Shown: positions 10,953-36,536 of the stretch, in pieces | How the letters are laid out: each line of letters opens with the position of its first letter | How positions within the stretch are numbered: the stretch's first letter is position 1 | Translations under genes and position numbers: made by a program | Notes under the pieces: generated by a model | What the model saw: only the letters and a program-made list of their open reading frames with translations | What the model was told of the DNA's origin: nothing | Database searches by the model: none | Source: Elusimicrobiota bacterium | Lineage (GTDB): Bacteria; CG03; SLGR01 | Direction of reading: 5' to 3' | DNA: 64,000 nt | NCBI GenBank assembly: GCA_003553445.1 | Contig: PWEK01000052.1 | Span: 1-64,000, forward strand

Positions 10953-10964
10953 AAATTGAAGCCG

Positions 10965-10990
10965 AGCCGGACTTATACTTTATGACTTAT
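10965..10990 (+). repeat. Solo 26-bp copy of the inverted repeat that bounds the RAYT-like element at 35.1-36.0 kb
   Basis: agccggacttatactttatgacttat, identical to 35111-35136 and to the reverse complement of 35988-36013. Confidence 0.97.
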
Positions 10991-11010
10991 CAACTGCAAA
11001 TTCACTCTAT

Positions 11011-11044: not shown

Positions 11045-11776
11045 ATGGAAATAGTTTTTTTAGGAACAAGCTCGGCAATAGCCACTGCAGAACGTGATAA
11101 TACTGCCGTTTTCGTAAAGTATTCAGGGAAAAGAGTCCTTATAGACTGCCCCGGCTCAATTGTACATAAACTGGCCAGAGCCTCGTTTAACTTTCTGAAT
11201 ATTGATGCAATCTTAATTTCCCACTCCCATCCTGATCACCTGTACGGTCTGCCGTCATTAATTCATTCTTTCGCTCCATACGCGACACCTCCCCCCATAT
11301 ATGCTCCGGATAAAACCATAAAAAAAATAAAAACCCTTTTAAGCCTATTCAATCTACGAGGCAACATTAAAAGATTGAGAAAAAATATAGATGAACTTGA
11401 TATTGAAACATTCAAAACAATGCACACAGACGAATCAGCCGGATTTTTATTCAAAGAAAACAAAAACGAAACCATATATACGTCGGATACAGGACCATTA
11501 CCCGGAAGGAAGAAACGGTACTTAAATGCCGACTGTCTAATACATGACTGCTTTTCTCCCTCAAGACACAAAAAGTCCATGCCGTTTTTAGACAACACAC
11601 ATACATCAGCCCTGGAACTTGGTAAAATCGCATCGTTAAATAATATAAAGAAACTTGTTCCTGTACATTTTTCCGGAGAACATAGTTATAAGATGGAAGA
11701 AATAATAAAAGAAATTAGAAAGAATTACAAAGGAAACATTTTAATTCCGAAAGATCTGGGTTTTTTAATCATTTAA
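11045..11776 (+). CDS. MBL-fold metallohydrolase (RNase Z/AHL-lactonase-like)
   Basis: HSHPDHLYGLPSL metal motif; FLGTSSAIAT N-terminus. Confidence 0.85.
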   Translation: MEIVFLGTSSAIATAERDNTAVFVKYSGKRVLIDCPGSIVHKLARASFNFLNIDAILISHSHPDHLYGLPSLIHSFAPYATPPPIYAPDKTIKKIKTLLSLFNLRGNIKRLRKNIDELDIETFKTMHTDESAGFLFKENKNETIYTSDTGPLPGRKKRYLNADCLIHDCFSPSRHKKSMPFLDNTHTSALELGKIASLNNIKKLVPVHFSGEHSYKMEEIIKEIRKNYKGNILIPKDLGFLII

Positions 11777-34336: not shown

Positions 34337-35104
34337 TCATATTCTGTGGAGTTCTAACAAAAATTGAGAAAAATTTACATAAATAACAGCCGCAGCTGCC
34401 AGATAGGGGCCGAACGGGATATACTGAAACTTATCCATTCTGCCTGCTATTTTCATAAAAAGCCCAGCCAGGCTTCCAAGTATGCTGGCGATAAAGAGCG
34501 TCCAAAAAATACCCCACATACCCGTAAATGCCCCTATCCCCATCATCAGCTTTAAATCCCCCAGCCCCATTGATTCCCTTCCAAAGGCTTTATTTCCCAA
34601 CGCGCGAATTATAAATATAACTAATCCTGCGACAACCATTGATAAAAAGGAATAAAACACACCGCCCGAAAAAAACCGGTTAAAAGGGGAAAAAACCACG
34701 CCCAGAATCATTAACGGATACGAAAGCTCAGGCGCTATAATCTGATGATCTATATCAATCCCGGAAATTATCACCAGAAAAACACCGAATACGGTAAAAA
34801 TCAACGAAGTGTAAATATGGTCAAATCTCAAAAACCAGGATGCGGTTATTACCGCCGTTATAAATTCCACAAGAGGGTACCTTATATTTATTTTTGCGCC
34901 GCATTCTCTGCATTTGCCTTTCAACAGAATATAGCTTAATAACGGAATATTAAGATACCACGGTATTTTTTTTCTGCACAAAGGACAAAAAGACCCGGGG
35001 TTTATTATGGACATATTTTCCGGAATTCTCACAATGCATACATTGGCAAAACTTCCAAAAATCAAACCAAACAAAAAAGCCGCAAAAACAATAAAACAGT
35101 TCAT
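34337..35104 (-). CDS. pilD: Prepilin peptidase (A24)
   Basis: CPLCRKKIPWYLNIPLLSYILLKGKCRECG; GLGDLKLMMGIGAFTG. Confidence 0.93.
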   Translation of the reverse strand: MNCFIVFAAFLFGLIFGSFANVCIVRIPENMSIINPGSFCPLCRKKIPWYLNIPLLSYILLKGKCRECGAKINIRYPLVEFITAVITASWFLRFDHIYTSLIFTVFGVFLVIISGIDIDHQIIAPELSYPLMILGVVFSPFNRFFSGGVFYSFLSMVVAGLVIFIIRALGNKAFGRESMGLGDLKLMMGIGAFTGMWGIFWTLFIASILGSLAGLFMKIAGRMDKFQYIPFGPYLAAAAVIYVNFSQFLLELHRI

Positions 35105-35109
35105 AATTA

Positions 35110-35137
35110 AAGCCGGACTTATACTTTATGACTTATT
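35110..35137 (+). repeat. Left inverted repeat of the RAYT-like element
   Basis: aagccggacttatactttatgacttatt; supplies the ORF stop codon. Confidence 0.97.
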
Positions 35138-35968
35138 TGAATTGCCATATTTTCTGTGAGCCTTTTCAACTATCCTGAACGTTCTATTAAAATATCTTCC
35201 AGTTTCACTATATCCATACCCCTCATCATACATCCGCGCCATGGCCATGTGGCGCAGTCTGCTCAACTCCCTCCTGCGGCTGCTGCTTAGCAGGTCCTGA
35301 ACCTTATAGGAAGTACCCCTGCATACATCATTTGCTATTCTTTCCATGCTTTTTCTTCCTCTTTTTTCACGATATGCCCCTGCCCTGCGGCCCTCTTTTC
35401 TCTTTTCTGTTTCTTCCCATTGCTCTTTAGAGCCTATATAGCTTGCACCCCCGGGCATATTTCCTCTAACACACTCCATACTTTCAGAGAAACAGGACTC
35501 AAAACTCTTTAAATCAGCCCACAGATTATTTCCCTCATACCAGTTCCATGAACTCCATTTATAGTCCTTAGAACTTTCTGAAATCCCCTTCTTTACCGGA
35601 TAACCGTGTATCATTTCAATAATATTTTTTAGATATCTATCATCAAGTATTATTTTGCAAAACGGCCTTCCCTCAAAAACGTGCCCGTTTGTTTCTCTCT
35701 TTTTGTTAAAATACTTTGCATACCCGCAATTAACCCTGTGGTAAATATTATTAAGCGGTGTCTTTCCCTGCTTCAGCAAAAGGTAGACATAGCAGTTCAT
35801 CAGCACAAAAGCCCCCAGTTTTCCGCCATTTTTGAATAGGTGATAATCCAGAGTTTTTATATATTTAATCCGGTCGTCAGGTGAGAAAAAAAGCGGCTGA
35901 AGACGCTGTCCTTTAAGAATTATATAATACCAGTGGTTTTCTTTAAATACCCTGTATCGCTGCGGCAA
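35126..35968 (-). CDS. REP-associated Y1-transposase-like (RAYT) protein, active site apparently degenerate, DnaA-domain-IV-like C-terminus
   Basis: NGHVFEGR and PVKKG...DYKWSSW match Y1_Tnp family positions; HxH position reads YVY; C-term SRLRHMAMARMYDEGYGYSETGRYFNRTFRIVEKAHRK; TTG start with AGGAG SD. Confidence 0.8.
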   Translation of the reverse strand: MPQRYRVFKENHWYYIILKGQRLQPLFFSPDDRIKYIKTLDYHLFKNGGKLGAFVLMNCYVYLLLKQGKTPLNNIYHRVNCGYAKYFNKKRETNGHVFEGRPFCKIILDDRYLKNIIEMIHGYPVKKGISESSKDYKWSSWNWYEGNNLWADLKSFESCFSESMECVRGNMPGGASYIGSKEQWEETEKRKEGRRAGAYREKRGRKSMERIANDVCRGTSYKVQDLLSSSRRRELSRLRHMAMARMYDEGYGYSETGRYFNRTFRIVEKAHRKYGNSNKS

Positions 35969-35986
35969 TCAAAACTCTCCTTTTTT

Positions 35987-36014
35987 AATAAGTCATAAAG
36001 TATAAGTCCGGCTT
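35987..36014 (-). repeat. Right inverted repeat of the RAYT-like element
   Basis: Exact reverse complement of the left repeat. Confidence 0.97.
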
Positions 36015-36083: not shown

Positions 36084-36536
36084 CTACCACGTAAATATCT
36101 GGTCACCCTGTGAATCCAGTTCGTCGCTTTCTATCCATACGTGCAGATTTACTTCGTCGTAGTGCCAGCCGGCATTTGAATCTCCATCTCCATCGTGATC
36201 TTCTCCACCCCAGCTAGCTTCAGAATTATGAGTACCATCGTCCCATTCAATTGTTTCATCCATATCTCCATCAACATAATAACGGAAACTGACACCGGGC
36301 AGTGAGCCAATGTAATCATCGACCAGCTGATCCAGTTCTTCCGCGGCACCCGCGTTTCTACCGTAGTAGATTGTTAGAGAGCTTCTTATTGCACCCAGGT
36401 CGGCCTGTGCGTTTGACTCCCTTGCGCGGTTTAACATGTCCGCAAACCTGGGAATCGCCACAGCTGCAAGTATTCCTATAATTGCTACAACAATCATCAG
36501 CTCAACGAGGGTGAATCCTTTATTTTTCATTCTCAT
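36084..36536 (-). CDS. Type IV pilin / type II pseudopilin (GspG-like)
   Basis: GFTLVELMIVVAIIGILAAVAIP; Asp-rich loop DHDGDGDSNAGW; SD AGGAGGTG. Confidence 0.9.
   Translation of the reverse strand: MRMKNKGFTLVELMIVVAIIGILAAVAIPRFADMLNRARESNAQADLGAIRSSLTIYYGRNAGAAEELDQLVDDYIGSLPGVSFRYYVDGDMDETIEWDDGTHNSEASWGGEDHDGDGDSNAGWHYDEVNLHVWIESDELDSQGDQIFTW

Follow-up and report, generated by a model that had tools for sequence, protein, structure and literature searches.

A candidate repeat-binding protein descended from a TIR-associated tyrosine transposase that has lost its catalytic residues

The window, a 64,000-nucleotide stretch of an Elusimicrobiota genome, carries a TIR-associated tyrosine transposase (TIRYT) in which, judged from an alignment of relatives, every catalytic residue is lost, while its reading frame, its DnaA-like tail and a dispersed family of its terminal inverted repeats (TIRs) persist. 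On balance, the element is probably a vertically inherited TIRYT that lost cleavage and was retained to bind the DNA of its own repeat family, with a probable autoregulatory role. RAYT and TIRYT genes are widespread and derived from transposases, and their benefit to the host is unexplained. A lineage without catalysis that retains the protein, the tail and the dispersed sites has emerged on at least two occasions. It uncouples binding from cleavage and, if confirmed, would mean that selection can maintain such a gene for binding alone. Copies are called dead or live here from their residues alone.

The element and its active site

The element and its surroundings comprise the following features.

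34337..35104, minus strand: prepilin peptidase gene, a syntenic marker with sequence resemblance across genomes G000 (that of the window), G001 and G002
35110..35137, plus strand: left TIR, 28 bp, overlapping the 3' end of the TIRYT gene
35126..35968, minus strand: dead TIRYT gene, 280 aa, TTG start
35180..35344, minus strand: DnaA domain IV-like tail, predicted to bind DNA, residues 209-263 (Bac_DnaA_C and fold match)
35552..35956, minus strand: Y1/HUH domain, residues 5-139 (NF047646 match and 4er8 fold match)
35600..35614, minus strand: codons 119-123, MIHGY replacing YIHxN in the alignment, with the nucleophilic Tyr changed to Met and the metal ligand Asn to Tyr
35783..35794, minus strand: codons 59-62, CYVY replacing NHxH in the alignment, with both metal-binding His residues gone
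35924..35926, minus strand: codon 15, conserved His (WYH) changed to Tyr in the alignment of relatives
35987..36014, minus strand: right TIR, 28/28 identical to the left TIR, abutting the ribosome-binding site of the gene
36084..36536, minus strand: type IV pilin-like gene, a syntenic marker on the opposite side from the prepilin peptidase

The 280-codon gene lies inside 28-bp perfect inverted repeats exactly as originally predicted, with the ribosome-binding site AAAGGAGAG directly upstream of its TTG start. Shuffles of the window yielded no chance match to the 28-mer, and a scan for sigma-70 promoters near the gene showed no clear excess (5 vs a shuffle mean of 3.0). The left TIR consists of AAGCCGGAC, an outer half-site TTATACTT (35119-35126), an inner half-site TATGACTT (35127-35134) and ATT, the half-site boundaries being read from comparison with G001, G002 and live relatives.

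Descent from a Y1 transposase and an intact DnaA-like tail, both claimed in the original prediction, are borne out. Residues 5-139 match NCBIfam NF047646 (REP-associated tyrosine transposase; E = 1.4e-7, 31 bits, cut-off 80) and residues 209-263 match Pfam Bac_DnaA_C (E = 7.8e-6, 26 bits, cut-off 31.5), both scores falling under the curated cut-offs; a profile search with Pfam Y1_Tnp gave no match to the protein. The AlphaFold2 model (mean pLDDT 83) has as its best PDB match 4er8, a RAYT bound to a REP hairpin (E 1.7e-6, TM 0.71 on the target), and its tail superposes on the DnaA-DBD structures 3pvp and 1j1v at 1.1-1.6 Å rmsd. Both the HUH fold and the DnaA-like tail are predicted from the model to be intact.

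The nuclease had been called dead from two motifs, LMNCYVYLLL and EMIHGYPV. Both are found in the translation, with YVY at the HUH position and Met at that of the catalytic Tyr, and all catalytic residues are missing in the alignment. The substitutions are H60Y and H62Y (HUH), Y119M (nucleophile), N123Y (third metal ligand, a role assigned by analogy with N119 of E. coli TnpA-REP; PMC6006769) and H15Y, which affects a conserved His in the first strand (WYHI in relatives); H15Y and N123Y had escaped the earlier inspection. The conserved HUH, metal-binding Asn and catalytic Tyr of a working TIRYT are represented by YVY, Y123 and M119, and the HUH and Tyr of the Y1 catalytic core of IS200/IS605 elements are likewise absent from the protein. 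HxH and Tyr are kept by 57 of the 61 aligned relatives and lost in four, namely the window copy and three copies in another phylum. All six active-site columns are lost in the window copy, versus 3/26 of the remaining columns with at least 90% conservation among live relatives (Fisher p 9e-5).

The new Tyr residues at 15, 60, 62 and 123 cluster at the old active site, and the repeats described below are uniform, as would be expected if the protein still cleaved by means of these substitutes. However, none of the three metal ligands is left, and different residues occupy these positions in the other dead copies (Q/H with C, E/L with H and E/H with H), making continued cleavage barely credible.

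Although the original description as RAYT-like stands as to the Y1 derivation, the RAYT label does not, given that the gene has non-palindromic TIRs as its repeats and a DnaA-like C-terminus; the element is a TIRYT/TIRtron by descent (TIR-associated tyrosine transposase, subclass 2.1.2, with a DnaA-like C-terminus). TIRYTs/TIRtrons were named by Di Nocera et al. (2013) for Y1 transposase genes within long TIRs, and some TIRtrons have moderately abundant families of dispersed TIRs (PMC3733652). In the scheme of Quentin et al. (2018), from which the TnpAY1 subclass 2.1.2 is taken, most TIRYTs fall in subclass 2.1, some with a Bac_DnaA_C-like C-terminus (PMC6006769). The window element resembles them as a lone Y1-derived gene enclosed by long non-palindromic inverted repeats (28/28 bp, unlike palindromic REPs), with a genome-dispersed TIR family and the C-terminal HTH/DnaA-like domain of subclass 2.1 (Bac_DnaA_C under its gathering score, DnaA-DBD fold match), and it is placed among live TIRYTs. 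It is unlike published TIRYTs in lacking catalytic residues and in having TIR half-sites that are no longer identical. The motif GGGGWSAS, reported for many TIRs and not universal in the published set (PMC3733652), is absent from the window TIR, which begins with AAGCCGGAC.

Other known systems share parts of this architecture. RAYT/TnpA-REP and REPtrons (4er8) have the HUH fold and a single gene between inverted copies of a dispersed repeat, whereas the window repeat is not a hairpin-forming palindrome and the protein has an extra DnaA-like domain and no catalytic residues; by inspection, the TIR contains direct half-sites, no long hairpin is evident, and no REP palindrome with a tetranucleotide at the hairpin foot was found in it. 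IS200/IS605 elements (IS608, ISDra2) share the HUH/Y1 fold, and the window element differs from them by having no subterminal hairpins or catalytic residues, an added C-terminal domain and one copy at a fixed locus. The tail fits DnaA domain IV; unlike DnaA, however, the protein lacks the ATPase domains, and the half-site TATGACTT differs from the DnaA box TTATNCACA. Among pseudonucleases, the inactive fungal RNase II-like proteins, described as having evolved repeatedly and been kept as nucleic-acid-binding proteins (PMC8097288), provide an analogy only, the window protein being a transposase relative inside its own element ends.

What is new is the dead state, the TIRYT kind, the perfect TIRs and the dispersed copies being already ordinary; near-perfect TIRs are usual in this gene family, most relatives having TIRs of about 20-40 bp. 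HUH and Tyr are said to be conserved in all members of the published TIRYT alignment (PMC3733652), and sequences without the core motifs were set aside as probably non-functional in the 2018 survey (PMC6006769). No report of a catalytically inactive RAYT or TIRYT was found in the literature, a weak negative given its restriction to open-licence papers.

Vertical inheritance, repeated loss and retention of the frame

The gene order in G002, from another genus of the same family, is pilin, TIRYT, one gene and prepilin peptidase, and that in the window is pilin, TIRYT and prepilin peptidase. The G001 contig breaks inside the TIRYT, leaving its catalytic half absent from the assembly, and contains the DnaA tail, the prepilin peptidase and the intervening gene also present in G002; all genomes compared are metagenome assemblies. 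On gene order and sequence resemblance, the pilin-TIRYT-prepilin peptidase neighbourhood is common to three genera, pointing to vertical inheritance in place. The G002 ortholog (L017) has HLH and Tyr intact and is the sister of the window copy (96/88) inside a supported clade of 11. Since this ortholog is live, at the same locus and sister in the tree, the loss of catalysis most simply postdates the split from G002. The window branch measures 0.60 changes per column, versus 0.72 for its live sister. With catalytic residues intact in G002 and lost in the window copy, the two orthologs at this shared locus make a clean pair for functional tests. The search for homologs sharing the YVY and Met substitutions, suggested with the original prediction, found no close relative with both in 393 genomes, GTDB r220 contigs or IMG/VR.

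Three further dead copies, all in another phylum, each have an open frame and TIRs. Their residues at the HUH motif and at positions 119 and 123 are as follows.

L124: NQVH, C119, L123
L067: TEAL, H119, F123
L158: KENH, H119, L123

H15Y occurs in 4/4 dead copies and 0/57 live relatives, and R19 and A127, kept by almost all live relatives, are changed in all four. A single dead clade for all four copies was rejected (AU p = 2e-20), indicating at least two independent losses, and a single loss for L124, L067 and L158 together was not rejected (AU p 0.53); these three may go back to one event. In their respective genomes, the L124 TIR has 15 dispersed sites and the L067 TIR 13 (controls 0), and a dead copy's TIR is thus dispersed in all three genomes searched. 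Most solo L124 repeats (L131-L140, G124) carry ttttgagttt inward of the TIR, like the element's left end, and may be one-ended remnants or a longer repeat. L158 (G394:C80) directly adjoins an apparent tRNA gene, as seen by eye.

Neutral substitution was simulated from the live ortholog until the five catalytic residues had all changed. The open frame survived in none of 2,000 runs (median 12 stops), and a median of 79% of other conserved columns was lost, compared with 2/24 in the window copy. Survival of the window frame through neutral decay is very unlikely, and pseudogene decay is rejected on this basis. A copy that died recently, with its frame still unbroken by chance, is accordingly given a very low probability. 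In its favour, live HxH/Tyr homologs exist, including the G002 ortholog, no second genome is known with the same dead copy, and the branches of L124 and L067 are longer than those of their neighbours; however, the window copy has retained its other conserved columns, its branch length is not raised, and dead copies with open frames recur. Purifying selection on the frame despite the loss of catalysis is thus indicated indirectly, by the simulation, the retained columns and the recurrent dead copies. The proposal of a domesticated protein kept by selection is well supported by the simulation, the live ortholog beside the same pilin and the recurrent independent losses. The counter-possibility raised with it, that homologs with HxH and Tyr would mark the copy as a decayed pseudogene, is right in that such homologs exist, but the copy is not decayed and has dead counterparts.

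The repeat family and its uniformity

The window TIR was located in its genome at 14 sites with up to 3 mismatches, a pattern that favours conserved copies, and ten of these sites are exact at the 21-bp core, both TIRs and the core of eight dispersed copies being identical; a reversed-pattern control gave no site. One solo copy is in the window itself.

10964..10991, plus strand: solo repeat, 2/28 mismatches, core exact, between two divergent genes

The live paralog L002 in the same genome has its own repeat (L078-L094), present at 17 sites, 11 of them exact over 26 bp.

TIRs were compared among 46 TIRYT relatives. In most live TIRs, a G-rich outer block precedes two direct half-sites, each 6-9 bp long and repeated at a period of 7-9 bp. 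These tandem half-sites resemble, at the level of sequence, a double binding site for the DnaA-like tail, and no description of this anatomy was found in the TIRYT literature consulted (PMC3733652, PMC6006769). A perfect half-site repeat over at least 6 bp is present in 29/42 live TIRs and 0/4 dead copies (Fisher p 0.015; Mann-Whitney p 0.006), in a test that was devised post hoc and involves few dead copies, not all phylogenetically independent, with L067 nearly tandem (7/8). At the locus shared with the orthologs, the half-sites are TATAACTT-TATAACTT in G001, TATGACTT-TATGACTT in G002 and TTATACTT-TATGACTT in the window. Similarity between TIRs is predicted by similarity between tails beyond the N-domain (partial r 0.17, p 0.001) and better by the N-domain (partial r 0.42), indicating that the tail is not the sole determinant.

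The main difficulty for a retained binding protein is the identity of ten copies over 21 bp, which does not fit easily with a loss of catalysis long ago; either the sites are under selection or they are spread by something else. One agent of spread might be L002, which is 43% identical to the window protein and has HAH and Tyr intact. The dead protein would then be its non-catalytic partner in a mixed complex, in which L002 takes the outer half-site and the dead protein the inner one, and the window repeats would still be mobilised and would have spread after catalysis was lost. The window outer half-site TTATACTT is exactly the half-site of L002, which suggests such a complex, and the inner half-site TATGACTT is that of the G002 ortholog. 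In addition, the window repeats are as uniform as those of L002 (10/14 at 21 bp vs 11/17 at 26 bp), and the genomes G000, G124 and G394, which have dead copies, also hold live TIRYTs. However, the match covers 8 bp of AT-rich sequence and was noticed after the fact, and specificity for the cognate repeat has been reported for RAYT-type enzymes (PMC6006769). Because the other three dead copies show, by inspection, no matching outer half-site, the mixed complex is rated lower and appears unlikely, though it deserves some weight. It is also rather unlikely that dead TIRYTs form a recurrent class of pseudo-transposases acting as specificity subunits, which, unable to cut DNA on their own, together with a live paralog recognise a mixed two-half-site repeat and keep its dispersed family spreading and uniform.

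A live TIRYT that has the same TIRs and is missing from the assembly could instead spread the repeats, the window gene being an old side copy retained by chance or for an unrelated function. The genome is a metagenome assembly of 142 contigs, 97% complete with 5.6% contamination, and repeated genes are often lost in assembly. Nevertheless, the assembly has no other gene enclosed by these TIRs, and the window gene occupies the locus of the G002 ortholog, and we give this explanation little credence.

A putative role in repression

If the protein has been retained to bind its own repeats, the reading favoured here, the DnaA-like tail would still bind the repeat in double-stranded form, with the inner half-site TATGACTT as its main target. 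The protein would probably repress its own gene through the copy at 35987-36014, which lies over the gene's 5' region, and would occupy the dispersed copies, leaving the repeat family silenced rather than moved. As the right TIR abuts the ribosome-binding site, bound protein could block expression of the gene; this arrangement, together with a TTGAAA/TATAAT promoter seen by eye to overlap the L067 TIR, makes autorepression plausible.

Two results count against a regulatory role: the dispersed copies show no regulon, and the positions of the solo copies lost their value as evidence when further live families were compared. Solo copies lie within 15 bp of a stop codon in 3/12 cases for the window family versus 12/14 for the live L002 family (Fisher p 0.004), and those of the live L048 and L049 families (G033) are mostly not near stops. 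Stop-proximity therefore looks specific to L002 rather than a difference between live and dead, and repeat positions were rejected as evidence of regulation. The genes beside solo copies of the window family, called as mechanical ORFs, are without a common theme and encode anthranilate synthase, two ArsR regulators, an MBL-fold protein, a PCC-domain protein and DUF4402 proteins. The MBL-fold protein adjoining the solo repeat in the window (11045-11776) matches Lactamase_B_2 and, weakly and below the cut-off, the anti-Pycsar protein Apyc1.

Close inverted TIR doublets, which are REPIN-like, occur in the live L018 and L002 families (L205:14889-14978, L051:1134-1243 and G000:C37:63-147, the last in L082/L090); none was seen in the window, L124 or L067 families, and numbers are small throughout. 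One solo repeat occupies an equivalent position close to the 5' end of orthologs from two genera (L101:4029-4049 in G000:C122 and L106:3247-3267 in G001:C181), apparently coding there for part of a signal peptide.
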